Part shown: piece after piece, positions 30,810 through 40,718 of the stretch
How the letters are laid out: every line of letters starts with the position of its first letter
How positions within the stretch are numbered: position 1 is the first letter of the stretch
Source of the DNA: Pseudoduganella sp.
Lineage (GTDB): Bacteria; Pseudomonadota; Gammaproteobacteria; Burkholderiales; Burkholderiaceae_D
Length of the DNA: 64,000 bases
Direction: 5' to 3'
NCBI GenBank assembly: GCA_021323265.1
Contig: JAJTCO010000013.1
Coordinates: forward strand, 1-64,000
Translations under genes and position numbers: made by a program
Notes under the pieces: generated by a model
Database searches by the model: none
The model's input: the letters and a program-made list of their open reading frames with translations, nothing else
Told to the model about the DNA's origin: nothing

Positions 30810-32147
30810 ATGGCGCTTTCTGCTTGCGTCCTGGCGATCGGTAACGCGCCCGCAAGTGCCTGCTGCACCCTGCAGCAGGGCCTCTCCAGTGCAGGCGTCA
30901 CCCTCCTCGACGCGCCGCAGGAAGCCGGCGCCTGCATCCTTCCTTTTACCCATTGGGACAGCGAACTGGCCGCACAGCTGCAGGCGTCCTGCATACAGCA
31001 GGTGCTGGCCATCTGCTGCGCGCCGGCCGCCATGGCGCCCGACACCATGTGGCAAGTCCTGGCCGCGGGCGCGGCCGACCTGCTGCTGTGGCAGGATGGC
31101 GACACATTGCTGGCGCAAGTGCTGGCCCGCCTGGAACGCTGGCACGACGTGGGCCGCATGATGGCGTCGGACGGCGTGCGTGCCTGCCTGGTGGGCCAGA
31201 GCGCGCCCTGGCGCCGCATGCTGCAAGGCCTGGTGGAAGTGGCGGCCTTCACCCAGTCCCCCGTCCTGATCACCGGCGAGACCGGCACCGGCAAGGACCT
31301 GCTGGCGCAGGCCGTGCACCGCCTGCAGGGCGGCGCGGGCCAGCTCACGGTCGTGGACTGCACCACGCTGTCGCCGGAGCTGGCCGGGAGCGAACTGTTT
31401 GGCCATGAACGCGGGGCTTTCACCGGCGCCTACACCGCGCGCGACGGCGCCTTCGCCGCTGCCGACGGCGGCGTGCTGTTCCTCGACGAAGTGGGCGAAC
31501 TGCCGCTGCCGCTGCAGGCGCAGCTGCTGCGCGTGATCCAGGAACAGCAGTACCGCCGCATCGGCAGCAACGACTGGCATCCCACCCGCTTCCGGCTGGT
31601 GTGCGCCACCAACCGCGACCTCGAGGCCGAGGTCCAGCGCGGCACTTTTCGCGCCGACCTGTACTACCGCATTGCCGCATGGCGCTGCCGCACCCCGCCG
31701 CTGCGCGAACGCCCTGGCGACATCCTGCCGCTGGTGCAGCACTTCCTGCGCCAGCTGGCCGGCCAGGACTGCCAGCTCGACCCGGCCGTGCGCCAGTACC
31801 TGCTCACGCGCAGCTATCCCGGCAACGTGCGCGAGTTGCGCCAGACGGTGGCGCGCATCTGGCACCGCCACATCGGCCCCGGACCGCTTACCATCGGCGA
31901 CGTGCCGCCGGACGAGCGGCCCGCCACGCTGGCGTGCTGGCCCGACGAAGCCTTCGCCGATGCCATCGGACGCGCGCTGGACCTGGGCGTGAGCCTGGCG
32001 CGCATCGGCCAGGCCGCCACCGACACCGCGATCCAGCTCGCGCTGCAGCAGGAAGGCGACAACAACCAGCGCGCCGCGCTGCGCCTGGGCGTCACCGACC
32101 GTACCTTGCAACTGCGGCGCAAGGCACGCAACGGCCACGCCGCCTAG
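30810..32147 (+). CDS. sigma-54-dependent transcriptional activator (bEBP)
   Basis: 445-residue AAA+ activator of RNA polymerase-sigma-54. Residues 1-112 look like a receiver that has lost its phosphorylation acids. The AAA+ domain carries Walker A GETGTGKD (156-163), the sigma-54 contact loop GAFTGA (202-207), Walker B LFLDE (223-227) and the RADLYYRI/LREDPGDI-type sensor region. A Fis-type helix-turn-helix lies at about 415-440 (NNQRAALRLGVTDRTLQLRRKA). The stop overlaps the convergent amidohydrolase stop by four bases, placing this regulator at the far end of the 32.1-39.7 kb operon, whose promoter is a sigma-54 type. Inference: it is that operon's dedicated activator. Confidence 0.92.
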   Translation: MALSACVLAIGNAPASACCTLQQGLSSAGVTLLDAPQEAGACILPFTHWDSELAAQLQASCIQQVLAICCAPAAMAPDTMWQVLAAGAADLLLWQDGDTLLAQVLARLERWHDVGRMMASDGVRACLVGQSAPWRRMLQGLVEVAAFTQSPVLITGETGTGKDLLAQAVHRLQGGAGQLTVVDCTTLSPELAGSELFGHERGAFTGAYTARDGAFAAADGGVLFLDEVGELPLPLQAQLLRVIQEQQYRRIGSNDWHPTRFRLVCATNRDLEAEVQRGTFRADLYYRIAAWRCRTPPLRERPGDILPLVQHFLRQLAGQDCQLDPAVRQYLLTRSYPGNVRELRQTVARIWHRHIGPGPLTIGDVPPDERPATLACWPDEAFADAIGRALDLGVSLARIGQAATDTAIQLALQQEGDNNQRAALRLGVTDRTLQLRRKARNGHAA

Positions 32148-32875
32148 CGCACGGCGCCGATCAGGCGCAGCAGGTTGCCGCCCAGGACCAGCGCCTCGTC
32201 CCCCGCCCCCAGGCGCAGTAGCCGGATCTTCTCCAGTTCCACCCCGGGGTGCAGCCAGGGGCCGTCGGAACCGAACAGCACCTTGTGCGCCCCGGCGCGC
32301 CGCACCGCCTGTTCCAGCAGGTCGAAGCGGCGCACCCCGGCGGTGTCGGTGTGGATATTGGGGTGGCGCGCCAGGTGGTCGATCAAGGCCAGCTGCGCCG
32401 CCCAGTCGTCGGCGAAGCTGCCCAGGTGCGGCAGGATGAAGTTGACGTCCGGGTACTGGGTCGCCAGCAGCTGCGCCACCGACGTCGCGCCGACCGGGTC
32501 GTACAGCACCGGCAGGCCGAATCGGCGCGCCACCTCGCACACCTCGCCGGTGATCGGCGCGTCGTGCCGGTGCAGCTTGATGCCGACAAAGCCGTACTCC
32601 TCCACGGCCTTGCGCACCACGGCGCCAATGCGCCCGGCGTCGCGCCGCGCGTGCACGAAAGCGAACCCGTAATAGCGCCCCGGCTGCGCCGCCAGCAGGC
32701 GCGCCACGCCCGCATTGGCCGCCGCGTAGTCGGAATGGAAGGCAGCCAGCAGGACGGTGCGATCGATGCCCGCCGCGCGCGCGCGCAAGGCGTAGCGTTC
32801 CAGCGACAGGTCGCTGTCCCACGGTCCGGTCAGTCCGTCGCCCGGGCCGGCGTGGCAATGACAGTCGATGATCAT
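32144..32875 (-). CDS. amidohydrolase-family TIM-barrel hydrolase
   Basis: 243-residue metal-dependent hydrolase of the amidohydrolase-2 type. The N-terminal IIDCHCHAG gives the HxH metal ligands; GIKLHRHDAP, FILPHLGSF and the late Asp in VLFGSDGPWLHP complete the expected metal site. Members decarboxylate or hydrolyse small aromatic or lactone compounds; the substrate cannot be predicted. No signal peptide. It is the last gene of the six-gene operon and overlaps the upstream gene by four bases (ATGA). Its link to the glycine-zipper proteins is unexplained. Confidence 0.82.
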   Translation of the reverse strand: MIIDCHCHAGPGDGLTGPWDSDLSLERYALRARAAGIDRTVLLAAFHSDYAAANAGVARLLAAQPGRYYGFAFVHARRDAGRIGAVVRKAVEEYGFVGIKLHRHDAPITGEVCEVARRFGLPVLYDPVGATSVAQLLATQYPDVNFILPHLGSFADDWAAQLALIDHLARHPNIHTDTAGVRRFDLLEQAVRRAGAHKVLFGSDGPWLHPGVELEKIRLLRLGAGDEALVLGGNLLRLIGAVR

Positions 32876-34017
32876 GGCCGGCCAAAGCGCGGCGCATTGG
32901 CGCGCAGCGCTTCGAGCACGGCGCGGCGCACCGCTTGCGCACTGCCGTCGCTGTCGCCGGCCGCGCGGGCGGCGCTGCCGGCAATGCGCACGAAGCGGCG
33001 CGCCACTTCCAGTTCGCGGTCCACTCCCGGCATCTCCTGCATCTCCATCTCGAGCGCCTTGCTCAAGGCCCCGCCCAAGGCGCTGCCCAGCGCGGTGCCG
33101 ACGCCTGGAATGGGAATGAAGGAGCCGAGCGCGCCGCCGACGAATGGCAGTGCCTTCTTGGCAATCCCCTTCAGTACACCGCCGAGCGGCTTGGCGACCT
33201 TCTTGATGCCGCGCCAGATGCCCTTGAACATCTTGCCGAGAAACTGTTCAAGGTCCGCTTCGCTCTGCACCGACAATAGCTCCATCGCCAGTTCCAGCTC
33301 CTGCTCCTCGCTAAAAGGCCCGCGTTGGCAGCGCGCGCAGCCGCAACTGCCACGGTGTTCCTCCTCGAACATGTCGAACTCGAGCTCCAGGTTCTGATTG
33401 GTCAGGAAGTTCGCCTTCTTGTCGAACACCCGTTCATGCAGCTGCTTTTCCATCGCACGCCGCAGCTTATAGTCTACCGGGCCCACCGCGACAAAGGTGC
33501 GGATGCTCTCCGGCCGCAGGCCCATGACCGCCGCGCAGAGCCGGTGCTGCTTGAGCCGGTTTGCCATGTAGGCCGACTCGCCGCTGTAGGCCCGCGTGCG
33601 GCCGTTGACGCCGAATTCGAAGTAGTACAGGCCGGGGTTTCTTGCGCTCGGATGGTTCGGCGCCGTGCGCAGCGAACCGACCGGTTCGAACTTGGGACGC
33701 ATGCCGGGCGTCATCCAGTTGACGGCCTCGCGCAAGGCTTGCGTCAACTCGCCTTCGAGCGCCTCCTCGAACGGCTCCTCGATGGGCTCATCGAACGGCT
33801 CGTCCACCGGTTCGGCGCCACCGATGGGCAGCGGCTCGAAGACCGGCACGCCGTACGGCCAGGCGTTGAATACAGGCACCGGTCCGCGCCTGGGGCGGCG
33901 GCCAGGCTTGGCGCGCGGGCGCCCCTGGAGCGGCACGCGGCCTTGCGTGCGGCCCTGCATCCGGCCCTGTACGCGGCCAGCGCGCGGCCGCCATTCGAAT
34001 TCCATCGTTTCAAACAT
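32872..34017 (-). CDS. GIY-YIG-like protein with C-terminal glycine-zipper module
   Basis: 381-residue protein of unknown function. Residues 12-48 are a basic repeat rich in QGR units. Residues 70-95 are acidic (EPFDEPIEEPFEE). Residues 129-197 resemble a GIY-YIG nuclease core: GLYYFEF, AYSGES, the conserved Arg in NRLKQH and a Glu in EKQLHERVF, with YIG replaced by YSG. A CxCxxC cluster sits at 225-230. Residues 246-322 form a module shared with the operon's first gene: ELLSV, LEQFLG, LKGIAKKALP, then a glycine-zipper stretch. The C-terminal DRELEVARRFVRIAG motif is also shared. No signal peptide. The start overlaps the preceding stop by eight bases. Possibly a nuclease or peptide effector; this is a hypothesis. 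Confidence 0.7.
   Translation of the reverse strand: MFETMEFEWRPRAGRVQGRMQGRTQGRVPLQGRPRAKPGRRPRRGPVPVFNAWPYGVPVFEPLPIGGAEPVDEPFDEPIEEPFEEALEGELTQALREAVNWMTPGMRPKFEPVGSLRTAPNHPSARNPGLYYFEFGVNGRTRAYSGESAYMANRLKQHRLCAAVMGLRPESIRTFVAVGPVDYKLRRAMEKQLHERVFDKKANFLTNQNLELEFDMFEEEHRGSCGCARCQRGPFSEEQELELAMELLSVQSEADLEQFLGKMFKGIWRGIKKVAKPLGGVLKGIAKKALPFVGGALGSFIPIPGVGTALGSALGGALSKALEMEMQEMPGVDRELEVARRFVRIAGSAARAAGDSDGSAQAVRRAVLEALRANAPRFGRP
33052..33282 (-). repeat. glycine-zipper module, copy in the GIY-YIG-like protein
   Basis: Codes for residues 246-322: ELLSV, LEQFLGKMFKG, KGIAKKALPFVGGALG and repeated GxxxG-type spacing. Matches in order and spacing the module at 38824-39078. Confidence 0.65.
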
Positions 34018-35059
34018 GGAGCACCTCCATCAGTTGTCCAATCGAACGGGCCGCGAAATCTACTTCCTGGGCGCTGTGGTCAGCGCGCAGCAGCAACGTC
34101 AGCACCTGCCTTGCCCGTGTCCTTTGCAGCAGCACTTCCACTCCCGCCTGCGACAGTCCCCGCCACAACGCCGCGCCGTCGCACGCCGGCGGCAGGACGA
34201 CGCGCTGGACCGGGAAGTCGCCTCCACGGCAAGCGATTCCCCACGCCGCCAGAGCGGCGCGCAGCTGGGCGATCCGCTCGCGCAGACGCTTGCGCAGGGC
34301 CGCCCCGACCCGGCGGTTGGCCTGCAGCGCGCAGCCGCCGGCGGCAATCGCCGCCATGGACGGCGGGCTGCAATGCACCCGCGTCTCGCTGGCGGCCATG
34401 AAACCGCGCAGCAGCGTGCGCGGTCCCGCCAGCACCGCCAGCGGAACGCCGAAACCCTTCGCCAGCGAGGCGCCCGCCAGCAGCGGCGCGCCAGCCAGTC
34501 CGTGCGCCGCCACCGAGCCGCCGCCTTCCGGTCCCAGGATGCCCAGCGCCTGGGTGTCGTCCAGCAGCAGCAAGCCGCCCTCGCTGTCCGCTATCCCGGC
34601 ATACGCCGCCAGCGGCGGCGCCGCTTCGTCGCCGGGCGTGTAGCCATCGGCCAGCAGCACCGGGCGGTGGCCCGCCGCCCGAAAGTGGCGCGCCAGCCCC
34701 GCCGCCTGCGCAGCGCTGCCGTGGGCGAAGCACCGCACCGGCACGCCCAGCGCTGCGGCGCGCTCGACGCCCCAGCGCGCCACCGGGTAGGCGGCGCTGT
34801 CCACCAGCAGCGCCACCGGTTCCCGGGCCAGCCAGCCGAACAGGTCCCAGAACAGGTGCAGGCTGGAAGGCGACAGGCAGGCGGCCTCGCAATCCATCAG
34901 GCGCGCCAGCGCGGCGCCCAGCTCCGCCTCGCCCGGCACCGGCTCCAGCGCTGCGGGCTTGCCCAGCGTCAGGGCCGGCCATGGCGGCAGCGCGTCCGCC
35001 GCGTGCCGCATGCCCAGGTAGAGCGCGCTGGTGAAGTCGGCCTGCACCGCCTGCCTCAC
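34010..35059 (-). CDS. BioF/KBL-like PLP-dependent protein
   Basis: 349-residue fold-type I PLP protein resembling the alpha-oxoamine synthase group (BioF, KBL). The Schiff-base lysine is probably Lys201 in ASLAKGFGVPLAVLAGP. The preceding LLLDDTQALGILG (about 164-176) corresponds to the usual D-E/D-A-H segment, but the histidine that stacks on PLP is replaced by glutamine, so chemistry may differ. The start is a GTG at 35059 overlapping the previous stop (GTGA). The N-terminus is about 40 residues shorter than typical BioF. Could make a small aminoketone or modify a product of this operon; not resolvable from sequence. Confidence 0.72.
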   Translation of the reverse strand: MRQAVQADFTSALYLGMRHAADALPPWPALTLGKPAALEPVPGEAELGAALARLMDCEAACLSPSSLHLFWDLFGWLAREPVALLVDSAAYPVARWGVERAAALGVPVRCFAHGSAAQAAGLARHFRAAGHRPVLLADGYTPGDEAAPPLAAYAGIADSEGGLLLLDDTQALGILGPEGGGSVAAHGLAGAPLLAGASLAKGFGVPLAVLAGPRTLLRGFMAASETRVHCSPPSMAAIAAGGCALQANRRVGAALRKRLRERIAQLRAALAAWGIACRGGDFPVQRVVLPPACDGAALWRGLSQAGVEVLLQRTRARQVLTLLLRADHSAQEVDFAARSIGQLMEVLHV

Positions 35060-37230
35060 GCAATGCGCGGCATCGCCTCCAGGCGCTGCCGCAGCAGTAC
35101 CGACGGCATGGTGGCCTCCAGCTTGGGATTGGGCGTCTCGGAGGTCAGGTCCACGCCTGTCACGGCCCGGTAGGCGTGCATGTAGCCTTGCGCCTGCGGA
35201 CGCCAGAAACGCGCCCAGGCAAATGCCTCGGTCGGGTCGTACACGTCGCTCCAGTGGCTGTAGCGGATCGACAGCAGCAGCTGCTCGCCGAACATGGCCA
35301 GGTCGCGGAAGTGGGCAATGCTGGTGTCGCTCCAGCCCTGGATCTTCTTCATCGCGTCGACCCGGTCCATCCACGGTTCTGGATGCGCCACCATCAGGCG
35401 CGTGGGCAGGAACTCGCGGAATTCGGGACGCGCCAGCATCCACTGCTGCATCAGCATTTCGATGCGTGCCGTCGACGGCAGGTCGCCGAACTGGTTGTGC
35501 GCGCCCTGCGACAGGATCAGGTGCACCTCCTTCAGCGCGTTCAGGATGGGGAAGGCGTCGGCCTTGACGGTGGTGTCGTCGTCCTGGCGGTAGAACGGCA
35601 TCAGCTGGCGCAGCAGGTTGTGGAAGGCCTCGATGAACTTGGAGCGGCTGTCGGCCGGACGGAAGTCGCGCACCGCCTTGCCGTCCAGGTGGATGCCGTA
35701 GTGGTGGTCGTACTCGTAATTGCGGCGCACCACGCTCAAGCGGTGCTGCTCGTCCTGCACGAAGCCCCATAGCAGGTTGTTCAGCGGCCGCAGCATGTCC
35801 ACTTCCATGTTGGCCAGCGGGTCCGGGCCGCTGCCGTGGGCGATCGAGCGCACGTTCTGGAAGCGGCGCGCGATGGCGTTCATGGTCTGCACCAGCATGC
35901 CTTCCTCCTGCCAGTAGGACCAGATCAGCTCCATCATGCACGGGTTGACCAGGCGCTCGCGGATGAAGCCCGCGCACAACTCGGCGTCGTGGTGCTCCTT
36001 GTGGCCCATGTGGATGCGCACGTCGGGCAGCTTGCTGCGGATCAGGGCCAGGTAAGGCAGGATGCGCGTCTTCTGGTCCAGCGAGGTGAGGTAGCGCCTG
36101 ACCAGTTCCTCTTCCAGCTTGCGGTCGTCGGGCAGGTCGCGCCGGTCCAGGTACTCGGCGTCGTCCTGGCCGCGGAACGCATATGGGCTGCGCAGCACGC
36201 CGCAGTTGACCATGACGAAGGCTTCGGTGGCGGCCTTCAGCACGCGGTACGAGTCGGAATCGCTGAACGGCAATGCGCGCCGCTTCTCCAATGCACGGAA
36301 GGCACGTTCCTTTTCGCCGAAGCGCTCGCGCTCGAACTCCGGCACGTCGGGCGTGTTGGCGCAGAACAGGTGGTCGATGAACTGCTGGTAGTTGTTGAAC
36401 GAGAGCGCTTCGGCACTGTTCCTGATCAAGGTCCAGTGGGCGATGACGGGACGCCACTCGGCCTCGGTGCGCGAAGCATGGGTCGTGATGTCCCCCGCCA
36501 CCTGCAGCGGACTGGACTCGTCGACGATGATCGGCTCGGATGCGCGGTAGTGCGCGGCGTCGTGCGGGTCCGGCGTTTCGCCATCGGGTTCCAGCGCCGC
36601 CATGAAGACGTTTACCGCGGCCTCGGTGCTGCCGGTGGCGTTCAGGCGCATGCTTGACTTGACGCCCTTGGGCGCCTGGCTTTGCAGGGGCGGTTCGGGC
36701 ACGTAGTAGGTACCGGGCATCGGGTTCTGCCGCCCCGCCATGCCGTGGCTGACGGTGACCCACAGCGTATCGCCCACCAGGCCGTGCGGGCGGTCCTGGT
36801 TGTCGCCATTGGCGTAGAAGACCGGTTCCAGCCGGAACGGCGGTTCCAGCCGAAACTCCATTTCCGCCCGCGTGTCGTTGTTCAGGATATCGACGACGTT
36901 GTAGCGCTCGAAGTCTTCGTTGAAGGGCGTGACGTTGTTGTAGGCCACGATGTAGCTGCCCATCTCCAGGCCGTCGAAACGGGCATGTCCGTTCGGCCCC
37001 GTGTGGCTGGTGCGCAGCACCGGCCAGCCGCCCACCAGCCGGCGCATTTCGTCGGGGCTGGCGCGTGCCGCCCTGAGCTGCTGCAGCTGCTTCAGGTCCG
37101 CGTCGGAGGGATGGATCAGCAGCAGGTGGGAATGCACCACGGGGACCCAGCGATTGTCTGAAATCCTGGCCCGCACTGTGACGTCGATCTTGCCGCTGGG
37201 GACTGCGGCCGCCGCCTTCGGTTTAGTCAT
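35056..37230 (-). CDS. 724-residue protein of unknown family with N-terminal Ig-like domain
   Basis: I do not recognise this family. Residues 12-110 look like a beta-sandwich of the prealbumin/Cna-B type (KIDVTVRARI, then GPNGHARFDGLEMGSYIVAY). Residues 110-240 are beta-rich; from about 260 the protein is mainly helical with many aromatic and charged residues and no transmembrane helix or signal peptide. Notable segments are RIHMGHKEHHDAELCAGF, YEYDHHYGIHLDGKAVRDF and HNLLRQLMPFYRQDDD, which are His/Asp-rich and could bind metal. Strong GAGGAG ribosome-binding site; 13 bases after the metallopeptidase-like gene. It is the largest product of the operon and probably central to its function. Confidence 0.72.
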   Translation of the reverse strand: MTKPKAAAAVPSGKIDVTVRARISDNRWVPVVHSHLLLIHPSDADLKQLQQLRAARASPDEMRRLVGGWPVLRTSHTGPNGHARFDGLEMGSYIVAYNNVTPFNEDFERYNVVDILNNDTRAEMEFRLEPPFRLEPVFYANGDNQDRPHGLVGDTLWVTVSHGMAGRQNPMPGTYYVPEPPLQSQAPKGVKSSMRLNATGSTEAAVNVFMAALEPDGETPDPHDAAHYRASEPIIVDESSPLQVAGDITTHASRTEAEWRPVIAHWTLIRNSAEALSFNNYQQFIDHLFCANTPDVPEFERERFGEKERAFRALEKRRALPFSDSDSYRVLKAATEAFVMVNCGVLRSPYAFRGQDDAEYLDRRDLPDDRKLEEELVRRYLTSLDQKTRILPYLALIRSKLPDVRIHMGHKEHHDAELCAGFIRERLVNPCMMELIWSYWQEEGMLVQTMNAIARRFQNVRSIAHGSGPDPLANMEVDMLRPLNNLLWGFVQDEQHRLSVVRRNYEYDHHYGIHLDGKAVRDFRPADSRSKFIEAFHNLLRQLMPFYRQDDDTTVKADAFPILNALKEVHLILSQGAHNQFGDLPSTARIEMLMQQWMLARPEFREFLPTRLMVAHPEPWMDRVDAMKKIQGWSDTSIAHFRDLAMFGEQLLLSIRYSHWSDVYDPTEAFAWARFWRPQAQGYMHAYRAVTGVDLTSETPNPKLEATMPSVLLRQRLEAMPRIA

Positions 37231-37243
37231 GATGGAACTCTCC

Positions 37244-38503
37244 TCAAATGTCAGTCAAGGTATTGCGAAGCGCCCAATGCGTCAGCAGGCGCCCCAGCAG
37301 GGTGCTTTCGTGTTCCGGGCTCAGGATGCCGTCGGCCCGCGCCTGGCCGATGACCGCGAAAACCAGCACGGGTGACGACTCGTACATGCGCTGCGGTTGC
37401 CGCTGCCACAGGCGGAACAGCAAGGCCAGGTAGGCCGGTTGCCGCCGCTCCACCTGCAATGCCTGCGGCAGCGAGGCGCCGCGCAGCAGTGCCGGCCGGT
37501 GGCTCGCCAGCAACCCCGCCAGCGCCGGCATCGAAGCGCGCAGCTCGAGCAGCAGCTGGCGCTCCGCATCGGGCAGGCCATGCAGGGGATAGAACGATTC
37601 CCACAGGCGCGCCATGCGTTGCCACTGGGGGTGCGGAAAGAGCCGCTCGCCCATCGCGCAGCTGAGCAGGACCCGTATCCACGGCACCGGGTGCGGGTCG
37701 TCGATATTGATGCGGAAGACAAAGATGCGCGGCAGGCTGACCACACCGATCAGGCCATGGGTGGCCGCCACGCCGACCCTTGCCAGCGACCAGAAATCGG
37801 CGACGATCTCCGATATCCAGCGCTCCCACAGCTTCCACACCCTGGACGGGCCGGTGGCGCCGGACTGCAGCGATTGCAGCACCGGGCGCAGCGAGTTGAC
37901 CAGGTCGAGCAGCGCGGCGCCCTGGTGTCCCACTTCATGGAACAGCGAAGAGGCGATACTGGCGCCGACCATCCGTTCGCGCGGCACGCGGATGATGGCC
38001 ACCGGATTGTCGCCACCGCCGGGCAGGCGCGTGCGCGCGCGGCGGATGGCGGCCCCCGGCCCCCGGTCCAGGTAGCACACCACCGGCGGCGTCTCGTAGT
38101 AGGCCCCGCCCAACGCCAGCGCGTCCGACGATGCCACATCCAGTCCCGCCAGCCAGACACCGTTGCGGTGCTCGCTGCGCTGCGTGACCACGTCGTTGAA
38201 CAGGTCGAACTGGATCAGCGCCGCATTGAACTTCATGCGCAAGAAGGTGAAGCGGCGCTGCGCCTGGTCCGGGCTGGCCCGGCGCCCCTGCGCACTGCGC
38301 AGCCAGCGCAGGAAGCCGCGCACCATGGCGCGCAGTTCGCGCCGGCCGGAAACGAGCTGTCGCTCGATGCCACGCCGCGCCTGCGGCTGCAGCGACGCCG
38401 CCGGAACCATGGGTTCGATCAGGGCGAACGGCAGCACGCGGGCCAGGCGCGTCAGCAAGGAGCGCGCCTCCTGTGCCAGCATCCAGGCGGCGTAAGGGCT
38501 CAT
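37244..38503 (-). CDS. HEVGH zinc-metallopeptidase-like protein
   Basis: 419-residue protein with a gluzincin-like zinc site: HEVGH at 189-193 within SSLFHEVGHQG, and a candidate third ligand in SEIVADFW (Glu232, Asp236). Upstream, LGGAYYETPPVVCYLDRGPG is a probable substrate-binding strand. It has no signal peptide or clear transmembrane helix, though residues 10-35 are moderately hydrophobic. ATG 38503 lies five bases after the previous stop; a longer in-frame reading into the glycine-zipper gene is rejected. Possible roles are maturation of the glycine-zipper proteins or action on a target; neither is shown by sequence alone. Confidence 0.75.
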   Translation of the reverse strand: MSPYAAWMLAQEARSLLTRLARVLPFALIEPMVPAASLQPQARRGIERQLVSGRRELRAMVRGFLRWLRSAQGRRASPDQAQRRFTFLRMKFNAALIQFDLFNDVVTQRSEHRNGVWLAGLDVASSDALALGGAYYETPPVVCYLDRGPGAAIRRARTRLPGGGDNPVAIIRVPRERMVGASIASSLFHEVGHQGAALLDLVNSLRPVLQSLQSGATGPSRVWKLWERWISEIVADFWSLARVGVAATHGLIGVVSLPRIFVFRINIDDPHPVPWIRVLLSCAMGERLFPHPQWQRMARLWESFYPLHGLPDAERQLLLELRASMPALAGLLASHRPALLRGASLPQALQVERRQPAYLALLFRLWQRQPQRMYESSPVLVFAVIGQARADGILSPEHESTLLGRLLTHWALRNTLTDI

Positions 38504-38508
38504 CTGCT

Positions 38509-39693
38509 TCAGGCCCCGTACAGCACGATCTTGCGGCCCTGGCGTACCCAGCGCCCCGCGTTGCCGCGCATACCGCCTGCCATGGCGCCCATGGCGCCCA
38601 TGCCGCGGGCCGCCCCCTGCTGGCCGCCCTGCCCCATCGCCTGGCCTGCCTTGGAGAGCAGGCCCGGGGCGTGCTGGCGCACCGCCGCGGTGGCTGCCTG
38701 CATCGCGATCTGGCGCGGATCGCCGCCGCGTGCCTGCGCCGCGCGGTTGACGGTGTCGGCCGCCACCTTGACGAAGGTGCGGGCGCCGTCGAACTCGCGG
38801 TCCTCGCCGGACAGCTCGCCTTCGGCCTCCAGGCCCAGCGCGCTGCCCGCCGCCGACGCCAGGCCGCTGCCGATCTTGGCGCCCAGCGGGCCGCCGAAGT
38901 AGCCGCCGATCGCGCCGCCGGCCAGCGGCAGCGCCTTCTTGGCCACGCCTTTCAGTGCGCCGCCGATGGCCTTGCCCACAGGCGAGCGGATCACGTCGCC
39001 GGCGACGGAGGCGGCCTTTTTCAGGAAGCCGCCCAGGAACTGCTCCAGTTCCGCTTCGTTGGTAACGGACAGCAGTTCGCTGGCGAGCTCCATTTCCTCG
39101 GCTTCGGTCAGCATGCCCTGCTGGCCCATTTCGCCGCCCCATTCGGATTCAAACTCATACTCCCCTTCATAAGACGTTTCGTTGCCGAATTCCAGGGTGG
39201 TACGGTCAATGTCATGCATGATTTGCCCCCTTTGATGTGATGCTGCGGATTGTGGAACGGGTTCCCGTTCCATGACGGATACGATGGCGGGCAGCAGGCC
39301 CGGTGCCAACTGCCTGGCCGCCAGGTTCAGCGCGGCGCGCCGCCGCTGGCGCGGATCGCCGCGTGCGGCCTGGCGCGCACGGCGCGCTGCCAGGCCGGCA
39401 AAGCGCATGAACTGGCGTGCCGTTTCCAGTTCGCGGTCTTCGCCGCTCAGGCCTTCCAGCTCCATGCCGAGCATGCGCCCGGCAGCAGGACCGGCGGACA
39501 GGACGCGTTCGGCCAGCTTGGGCAGCACGCCGTCCAGGCCGGGAGCCACGCTGCGAAACCATTCGGGCAAGCGCCCTGCACGGCGCGCCGCCAGTAGTTC
39601 GGTCGCCAGCGCGAAACTGTCGTCGCGCCATGCCGCCTGTTCCGCGGCGGGCGCGAACTCCATTTCCGGTCGATAGCTGAGCATACGATTCAT
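38509..39693 (-). CDS. glycine-zipper protein, apparent fusion of two paralogous units
   Basis: 394-residue protein, first gene of the operon, with no signal peptide. Unit 1 (1-150) ends with GLSGEDRELETARQF and GDPRQ...APGLL. Unit 2 (159-394) starts at an internal ATG (39219) preceded by AAAGGGGG, has an acidic Glu/Tyr-rich stretch (170-190), then the shared module ELLSV...LEQFLGG, LKGVAKKALPLAGGAIGG and GAKIGSGLASAAG, and a second SGEDREFDGARTF plus GDPRQ...APGLL. The two units share the C-terminal motif, so the gene looks like a tandem duplication in which the stop between units was lost. ATG 39693 has GGAGAA upstream and sits 24 bases after the predicted sigma-54 start point. Membrane-inserting or pore-like behaviour is an inference from the zipper. 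Confidence 0.75.
   Translation of the reverse strand: MNRMLSYRPEMEFAPAAEQAAWRDDSFALATELLAARRAGRLPEWFRSVAPGLDGVLPKLAERVLSAGPAAGRMLGMELEGLSGEDRELETARQFMRFAGLAARRARQAARGDPRQRRRAALNLAARQLAPGLLPAIVSVMEREPVPQSAASHQRGQIMHDIDRTTLEFGNETSYEGEYEFESEWGGEMGQQGMLTEAEEMELASELLSVTNEAELEQFLGGFLKKAASVAGDVIRSPVGKAIGGALKGVAKKALPLAGGAIGGYFGGPLGAKIGSGLASAAGSALGLEAEGELSGEDREFDGARTFVKVAADTVNRAAQARGGDPRQIAMQAATAAVRQHAPGLLSKAGQAMGQGGQQGAARGMGAMGAMAGGMRGNAGRWVRQGRKIVLYGA
38824..39078 (-). repeat. glycine-zipper module, copy in the operon's first gene
   Basis: Codes for residues 206-290: ELLSV, LEQFLGGFLKKA, KGVAKKALPLAGGAIGG and GxxxG-spaced small residues. Same order and spacing as the copy at 33052-33282. Confidence 0.65.
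39217..39233 (-). promoter_or_regulatory. internal ribosome-binding site and ATG within the fused gene
   Basis: AAAGGGGG followed seven bases later by an in-frame ATG (39219) at the junction of the two units. It could give a separate 236-residue unit-2 protein in addition to the full-length product. Confidence 0.5.
39289..39447 (-). repeat. third copy of the DRE-AR-F / APGLL module (unit 1)
   Basis: Codes for residues 83-135: SGEDRELETARQF, GDPRQ and LAPGLL. Parallels residues 295-346 of the same protein and 331-378 of the GIY-YIG-like protein. Confidence 0.6.
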
Positions 39694-39727
39694 GCGTTCT
39701 CCATTGCCTGAGCCATGCGAGCAATAG

Positions 39728-39743
39728 TGCAAGCGCCATGCCA
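39728..39743 (-). promoter_or_regulatory. sigma-54 (-24/-12) promoter for the six-gene operon
   Basis: On the minus strand TGGCATGGCGCTTGCA matches the sigma-54 consensus TGGCAC-N5-TTGCA with one mismatch and exact GG-to-GC spacing. The start point would be about 39717, 24 bases before ATG 39693, with the GGAGAA ribosome-binding site inside the leader. A sigma-54 activator gene lies at the other end of the operon. Confidence 0.72.
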
Positions 39744-39773
39744 GCGTTGCTACCGGGGCGCGTGGACGCGCTG

Positions 39774-39789
39774 GCGAAAGCGGTTTCGC
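39774..39789. promoter_or_regulatory. inverted repeat, candidate activator site 1
   Basis: GCGAAA-N4-TTTCGC, centred about 65 bases upstream of the predicted sigma-54 start. Further GCGAAA copies lie at 39796-39801 and 39816-39821, giving four half-sites in under 50 bases. Confidence 0.45.
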
Positions 39790-39812
39790 GGAACAGCGAA
39801 AAGCGGGGAATC

Positions 39813-39834
39813 GGGGCGAAACGGCGTTCGCCCC
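39813..39834. promoter_or_regulatory. inverted repeat, candidate activator site 2 or dioxygenase terminator
   Basis: GGGGCGAA-N6-TTCGCCCC, perfect eight-pair repeat centred about 107 bases upstream of the sigma-54 start, a usual distance for enhancer-binding proteins. It also lies nine bases after the dioxygenase stop, so it may instead be a terminator, but no T tract follows. Confidence 0.45.
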
Positions 39835-39842
39835 GGTGGGGA

Positions 39843-40718
39843 TCAGGCGGCGACTGCCACCGTCAGGGTGAGGACGTAGCCGTCGGTGACGTTGCCGCTC
39901 ATGGTGCCAAGCTGCAAGGAGTAGCCGTCGCTGAAGATATTGTCCGTGGCGAAGCTGATGCGCGCCAGGTTGGCTGCAGAACTGCTGTAGCCGGACGTGG
40001 CATAGACTTCATTCATCGTCGCCAGCGGGAAGGTGAACTGCGACGTCTTGATGCGGTTCGACGCGCTGGTGCTTTGCGCCAGGCTGCGGTATACCTCGAA
40101 GTGCACGTGCGGCATGCGCCCGTCGTAGCAGCCGGGGAAGATGGTGGTGAACGTCAGATTGCCGTCGGCGTCGGCGGCCTGCACGCCACGCAGGTAATTC
40201 TGGTCCGTCACCCCCTGCGAGTAGAGCGAATAGCGCCCTTCGCGGTCGCAGTGCCACAGGTAGACGGCGAAACTGCCGGCGGCGCCGCAACTGGCGTTGG
40301 CATTGACGATCTTGAGCTTGACCGTCAGCGGGATCCCCGCCGCGCTCCCGCTGGCGCCATTGAAGCTGCTGCGGATGTCGCTGCGCACCACGCCGCTTTG
40401 CGTCAGGACGTTGACCACGCCACTGGCGTTGCTGTTGGTGCCGTCGCCAGGATACGGGCCGCCGGTTTCTTCAGGAATCACCTGGCAGGTGGCGGTGCCG
40501 GTACTGCTGCCCGTACCGGTGCTGCTGCCCGTTGCGCTGTTGGCCGTATCGCTCGAACTGCTCCCGGAACCGCCGCCACAGCCGGCCAGCGGCAGCGCGG
40601 CAGCACCGGCCAGCAGCCAGCGCAGGGAGCGGCGGCGCGTGCTGCCCATGTTCATCATCGCTTCCAGGTCGCTTGCCAGGGAGCCGCCGCTTGCGCCGTT
40701 TGCCGGATCAACGCTCAT
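39843..40718 (-). CDS. intradiol ring-cleavage dioxygenase-like lipoprotein
   Basis: 291-residue exported protein. The N-terminus has twin arginines (RRRSLRWLL) and a lipobox LAGC, so probably a Tat-exported lipoprotein, followed by a Gly/Ser/Thr-rich linker (about 50-80). The core matches intradiol dioxygenases: EETGGPYPGDG, VYLWHCDREGRYSLYS and TTIFPGCYDGRMPHVHFEVY, which carry the Tyr and the HxH iron ligands. Such cell-surface members may act on catechols in the envelope. The gene overlaps the Spy-like gene by 11 bases and so probably shares its Cpx-type control. An in-frame ATG at about 40652 (MNMGSTRRRS) would give a shorter N-terminus and is an alternative start. Confidence 0.88.
   Translation of the reverse strand: MSVDPANGASGGSLASDLEAMMNMGSTRRRSLRWLLAGAAALPLAGCGGGSGSSSSDTANSATGSSTGTGSSTGTATCQVIPEETGGPYPGDGTNSNASGVVNVLTQSGVVRSDIRSSFNGASGSAAGIPLTVKLKIVNANASCGAAGSFAVYLWHCDREGRYSLYSQGVTDQNYLRGVQAADADGNLTFTTIFPGCYDGRMPHVHFEVYRSLAQSTSASNRIKTSQFTFPLATMNEVYATSGYSSSAANLARISFATDNIFSDGYSLQLGTMSGNVTDGYVLTLTVAVAA

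Follow-up and report, generated by a model that had tools for sequence, protein, structure and literature searches.

A predicted sigma-54 switch with paired palindromic candidate enhancers upstream of a six-gene operon in Pseudoduganella sp. and its relatives

Positions 39728-39834 of a Pseudoduganella contig can be read with high confidence as a sigma-54 promoter with two tandem enhancers which, driven by a linked activator, control a six-gene operon (39693-32144). This control DNA is very probably a real, dedicated on/off switch, because the same arrangement precedes the same gene set in very different bacteria. The interpretation is supported since its predictions on the promoter, the enhancers and the activator link could each have been broken by evolution, and each of them held. 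In what follows, the window denotes the whole stretch of 64,000 nucleotides that was analysed. The control region comprises the following features.

39728-39743, minus strand: predicted sigma-54 promoter TGGCATggcgcTTGCA, with TGGCAT at -24 and TTGCA at -12 (exact consensus and conservation in relatives)
39717, minus strand: predicted transcription start (+1), placed from spacing only
39699-39702, minus strand: Shine-Dalgarno GGAG of g1, the first gene of the operon (from the sequence)
39774-39789, minus strand: proximal candidate enhancer (UAS) GCGAAACCGCTTTCGC, centre at about -64 (motif counts and footprint)
39813-39834, core 39816-39831, minus strand: distal candidate enhancer (UAS) GGGGCGAACGCCGTTTCGCCCC, centre at about -106 (motif counts and footprint)

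The sequence-only reading of this DNA had proposed TGGCAT-N5-TTGCA with exact -24/-12 spacing on the minus strand, and this element is confirmed at 39743-39728. It is the single zero-mismatch match to TGGCAYN5TTGCW in the 64-kb window, and both the spacing expected of a sigma-54-dependent promoter and the conservation of the site in relatives were found. Exact matches number 17 in the whole assembly, compared with 2 for the reversed control. When up to two mismatches are allowed, the window holds 62 matches against 65.9 expected; weak matches are uninformative because this count is at the chance rate. The abundance of such weak matches in GC-rich DNA also speaks in favour of a different reading, according to which the sigma-54-like sequence arose by chance, a housekeeping promoter drives the operon and the palindromes are unrelated repeats. 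We regard this as extremely improbable: the -24/-12 site is exact, its position and spacing are conserved in relatives, a simple scan of 39600-40000 detects no sigma-70-like site, and the palindrome pair and the promoter co-occur exclusively with the operon gene within the family. The genome encodes RpoN (sigma-54), which would transcribe from 39728-39743. The sigma-54 reading is further supported by comparison, as the -24/-12 element and the paired palindromes appear together before orthologous operons.

The predicted start at 39717 follows from the convention in which the second G of TGG is taken as -24. It had been proposed that this start lies 24 bases before the first ATG. The distance stands, since the ATG that has a Shine-Dalgarno is located at 39693, 24 bases from 39717. 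Two other ATGs, at 39716 and 39704, come between the predicted start and this codon. An 8-codon frame, MAQAMENA (39716-39690), opens at the predicted start and closes with a TGA that overlaps the ATG of g1. It is probably no conserved leader because the frame stops after two codons in two related loci (L031, L032).

Upstream of the promoter, two inverted repeats had been noted as separate motifs. Both are where they had been placed, but they represent one shared motif, a 16-bp site of the form GCGAA-N6-TTCGC with centres at 39781.5 and 39823.5, 42 bp apart. The window contains exactly two such sites (39774-39789 and 39816-39831) against 0.23 expected, and 3 of 100 shuffled sequences reach two. 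As a spaced pair, the arrangement is found once in the window, in none of 100 shuffles and once in the whole assembly (4.68 Mb, 83% complete). The spacing of 42 bp amounts to four turns of 10.5 bp, so that two dimers bound to the sites would face the same side of the helix. An additional GCGAAA at 39796 had been suggested as a further enhancer element. It is present, but an enhancer role is unsupported; only 5 of the 61 spacers examined contain an extra half-site strictly between the palindromes, and we rejected it as a conserved element.

The upstream neighbour (39843-40718) encodes a dioxygenase-like protein (Dioxygenase_C, 2e-07) with an N-terminus that looks lipoprotein-like by eye. The distal palindrome lies just past the stop codon of this gene at 39843 and its RNA fold (-17.7 kcal/mol) is better than those of all 200 shuffles, which would suit a terminator that merely resembles an enhancer. 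We nevertheless hold a terminator identity to be very unlikely: there is no T-run, a terminator scan finds none, and the distal site shares its core with the proximal palindrome at a spacing of 41-43 bp which is kept in 63 of 65 loci and which a terminator does not need. It is possible that the distal palindrome acts as terminator and enhancer at once.

The principal evidence for the enhancer reading comes from orthologous loci. Relatives were collected with the 724-aa product of the third operon gene (big) as the query, and the best 80 of 99 confirmed relatives are loci in named genomes. The footprint test covered 1.8 kb upstream of mp, the second gene, in 65 of these 80 loci, with no preselection for a sigma-54 site. 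The other 15 were left out because mp was not found or its start lay less than 2400 bp from the sequence end; loci L001-L030 are likewise outside the footprint counts. An exact CGAA-N6-TTCG pair at 41-43 bp is present in 63 of the 65 upstream regions, a sigma-54 site with a score of 19 or more out of 21.5 in 62, and the pair followed by such a site within 15-160 bp, in that order, in 60. Among 1300 dinucleotide shuffles, none carries the pair and 230 carry a sigma-54 site of at least 19; the promoter assignment therefore depends on where the site lies with respect to the pair. The five loci that fail the combined test comprise two in which no exact pair was found (L072, L105) and three in which the pair is present and the best sigma-54 scores within the tested region are only 18 (L099), 18.5 (L107) and 17 (L109). 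When the window and 76 loci were scanned whole, no further exact pair (40-44 bp) was detected outside the region upstream of the operon. In loci preselected for a sigma-54 site, the density of CGAAN6TTCG is 9.5 per kb upstream of the operon versus 0.058 per kb in the remainder of these loci; a palindrome is present in 67 of 67 such loci, a biased figure because they were chosen by a sigma-54 site of at least 19. Taken with the spacing and the co-occurrence with the promoter, this conservation supports the earlier proposal that the palindromes are plausible enhancer sites.

The geometry of the pair is nearly fixed. Across the 67 pairs, which come from 66 loci including the window (two pairs are in L102), the inter-site spacing is 42 bp in 57, 41 bp in 8 and 43 bp in 2. 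The proximal centre lies mostly at -63 to -67, -74 to -78 or -141 to -146. It is far out, at -131 to -189, in 17 of the 67 pairs, among them that of L099, where no usable -24/-12 element is present. In these 17 far-enhancer regions, matches to the IHF consensus cover 5-8 of 9 positions; shuffled sequences also reach these values (p 0.2-1.0 per locus). Helical phasing between pair and promoter was considered and dropped: the circular statistic reaches 0.53 at 10.5 bp and a higher value, 0.78, at 11.5.

According to the taxa given in the sequence records, carriers of the pair include Duganella, Massilia, Janthinobacterium, Variovorax, Nitrosomonas and Nitrospira as well as Methylomicrobium, Chloracidobacterium, Calditrichia and Schekmanbacteria, and the combination of pair and -24/-12 element upstream of orthologous operons is found in several phyla. 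The locus counts do not represent independent events because many loci are close relatives. The nearest named relatives of the window are Duganella records, a genus of the Oxalobacteraceae. Two further arrangements were observed. In Chloracidobacterium (L102), two complete units of pair plus promoter lie upstream of 4055 and of 5241, apparently one before each of two g1-like genes. In four Massilia loci (L060, L062, L064, L069), the pair is situated in an intergenic region that appears divergent by eye, and it could therefore also touch the opposite gene.

A comparison within the family addresses specificity. The 724-aa gene is carried by 40 of 294 genomes, and the pair followed by a sigma-54 core is found in 35 of the 294 (none for the reversed control). 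All 35 are among the 40 gene carriers, and none of the 254 non-carriers has the combination (compared by hand). In 33 of the 35, the site shares a contig with the 724-aa gene and lies on its upstream side; in G005 and G146 it is located on another contig. Two of the remaining carriers (G133, G001) possess the pair but no promoter core within the distance allowed by the pattern. No pair was found in three of the 40 carriers: in G190 the gene sits at a contig end, in G009 it is in pieces and in G289 it is only 40% identical. The pair alone is less exclusive and occurs in 43 of the 294 genomes, 37 carriers and 6 non-carriers.

The candidate activator is encoded at the far end of the operon, on the opposite strand.

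30810-32147, plus strand: sigma-54 activator (bEBP), convergent with the operon (Sigma54_activat 1.8e-56, exact GAFTGA)

Its reading frame is open from 30711, and alignment points to the ATG at 30810 as the likely start. The Sigma54_activat family is detected in 20 of 20 members of the activator set, and the GAFTGA residues are invariant in the alignment. Of the 59 loci whose flanks are complete (at least 17 kb), 57 have the activator gene downstream of the operon and convergent with it; this, together with the Sigma54_activat domain, the GAFTGA motif and the encoded RpoN, supports the earlier suggestion that the activator at 30810 is linked to the promoter. A DNA-binding HTH is found at the C-terminus, where NCBIfam activator models, AtoC and NtrC among them, align to residue 467 of the window protein. 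Pfam HTH_8 is reported in 9 of the 20 members at E up to 1, and the window protein yields only HTH_23 (E 0.34). The C-terminal segment RAAxRLGVTDRALQ is conserved, which fits the expectation because the target site is conserved as well. At the N-terminus, where a Group I bEBP (a phosphorylated response regulator) would have a receiver domain with a phosphoacceptor Asp, Response_reg is absent from the 16 families of the window activator and from the best 25 of 38 families for the 20 members. A weak profile match to a receiver is obtained (hhalign probability 35%), and PDB profiles of receivers (KdpE, CpaE-type) reach E 0.18-1.4, below phosphofructokinases at 0.02-0.03. The position of the phosphoacceptor Asp varies in the alignment, as judged by eye.

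Linkage and conservation suggest that this activator binds the palindrome pair, and it appears to have one target in this genome. A palindrome alone does not name its protein, and two loci (L101, L104) have the pair and no activator in the available flank. Both points would suit a reading in which another regulator, repressor or activator, binds the palindromes, with the linked activator acting elsewhere or without specific DNA binding. We consider this reading unlikely in view of the linked and convergent activator in 57 of 59 loci, the lack of any exact pair outside the upstream region of the operon in the window and the 76 loci, and the position of the paired sites upstream of a -24/-12 element, the arrangement expected for a bEBP.

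In the mechanism that we propose, sigma-54 RNA polymerase would sit at -24/-12, unable to open the DNA alone. The activator (30810-32147) would bind, as dimers, to both CGAA-N6-TTCG palindromes, which would lie on one side of the helix. Once bound, it would assemble into an ATPase ring and open the complex. For activators of this class, PMC7057263 describes binding to upstream sites, oligomerisation and ATP-driven opening of the sigma-54 closed complex. The same paper gives 100-150 bp as the typical enhancer distance (PMC7057263); the site at -64 is closer than this, which counts against the proposal.

The promoter architecture itself is of a known type. Classical sigma-54 promoters with upstream enhancers are those of the NtrC/NifA/NorR type, and the present system resembles them in its -24/-12 element, its dedicated AAA+ activator and its palindromic upstream sites, which are often several per operon. 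It differs in the single, nearly fixed spacing of 42 bp and in a target operon that is uncharacterised. For sigma-54 regulons of Clostridiales, PMC6615313 lists TGT-N10-12-ACA in fifteen activator groups and places most sites at 100-250 bp; here, the core is CGAA-N6-TTCG and the sites of the window lie at -64 and -106. FleQ, an activator whose receiver-like N-terminus cannot be phosphorylated according to PMC10723142, offers another comparison. A receiver-like N-terminus (weakly supported here), AAA+ and HTH would be common to both, and a conserved phosphoacceptor was not seen by eye in the activator alignment here. FleQ-type activators control flagella or biofilm genes, in contrast to the apparent single local operon of the present activator (PMC10723142). 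Lastly, RtcR is an RNA-repair activator with a CARF-type N-terminus, and the AAA+ domain of the present activator scores best against RtcR-type models (NCBIfam, PADLOC), with an NCBIfam score of 278 of 650 bits that is far below the cut-off. The N-terminus of the activator aligned with one sequence, E. coli RtcR, at an hhalign probability of 0.7%; this one comparison shows no N-terminal similarity and lends no support to an RtcR-like sensor. No RtcB or RtcA family member, and thus no linked rtcB or rtcA, was found among the operon proteins scanned.

All six genes of the operon probably share one transcript.

38509-39693, minus strand: g1, first gene, 394 aa, two in-frame glycine-zipper-like modules (by eye)
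37244-38503, minus strand: mp, 419 aa, HEVGHQ invariant in the alignment
35056-37230, minus strand: big, 724 aa, N-terminal strands and a helical C-terminal domain in models
34010-35047, minus strand: bioF-like PLP-dependent enzyme, 345 aa (Pfam Aminotran_1_2, 19.8 bits, cut-off 19.7)
32872-34017, minus strand: giy (working name, by eye), 381 aa, glycine-zipper-like module
32144-32875, minus strand: amidohydrolase (Amidohydro_2, Pfam match), last gene

Each of the 59 loci with complete flanks contains g1, mp and big; 56 of them contain the BioF-like gene and 52 the amidohydrolase. At E 0.1, neither Pfam-A nor NCBIfam offers a model that matches g1, mp, big or giy, four of the six products. The NCBIfam matches of the BioF-like enzyme are below cut-off, the best being bioF with 46 bits of 426. 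We take the HEVGHQ of mp to be a zinc-protease-like motif; the mp profile has no PDB match up to E 1. For the 724-aa protein, a PDB sequence search returned only E 0.6-0.7, and its N-terminal part E 0.011 and 0.72. The full-length model is poor (pTM 0.43). The model of the C-terminal domain is helical (pTM 0.78) and has no confident PDB match (best Foldseek E 0.6, best VIA-align Z 2.7). PADLOC returned the AAA+ similarity of the activator and two matches for giy at E 0.03-0.04, and PHROGs gave AAA+/ATPase matches and weak ones for giy, one of them named endolysin (E 0.011). Rfam yielded nothing at gathering thresholds.

Several observations concern the composition of the cluster. The g1 gene is a single frame of 394 aa with a second ATG (39219) and a Shine-Dalgarno inside, and L031-L033 align with it end to end. 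It looks like an in-frame fusion common to the nearest Duganella relatives because L074 and L102 have two separate genes. An acidic N-terminus with a glycine-zipper-like stretch is common to several cluster proteins (38509-39693, 32872-34017; L074, L077, L102). By eye, a C-terminal motif resembling GRWxRRGxxIxxxxA can be recognised in many of them, and it might direct sorting or processing. A scan of ten chosen proteins showed that the cluster is extended in some relatives by PG_binding_1 domains and by genes for trypsin-like and M20 peptidases. Relatives of the 724-aa protein are encoded on large replicons (plasmid records) in Ensifer adhaerens, two Rhizobium strains and Paraburkholderia phymatum, and the cluster may have moved horizontally.

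Taken together, the cluster encodes glycine-zipper proteins, an HExxH protein, the 724-aa protein, a BioF-like enzyme and an amidohydrolase; in some relatives, accessory peptidases and peptidoglycan-binding domains join this set. A role of the operon in the envelope or in protein processing is our guess. A published genomic survey argues for control of the cell exterior as the general role of sigma-54 (PMC3162934). A search of the open-access PMC literature, with papers judged by their titles and the openings of their abstracts, did not retrieve this activator group, its motif or its target operon. We see an even chance that the whole constitutes a cross-phylum module not described before, with one activator for one operon; the switch would travel with the gene set and perhaps serve an envelope or protein-processing response triggered solely by a specific cue.

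For the family, the paired CGAA-N6-TTCG with its -24/-12 element provides a precise tag of the operon gene (35 of 40 carriers, 0 of 254 others). The loci also form a natural series for the study of enhancer geometry, with proximal centres at about -64, -75 or -146 and an inter-site spacing near 42 bp; by inference, the same activator family would work from all three distances. Finally, the switch opens experimental access to a widespread cluster in which most protein families are unassigned: the activator could be turned on and the operon product read out.
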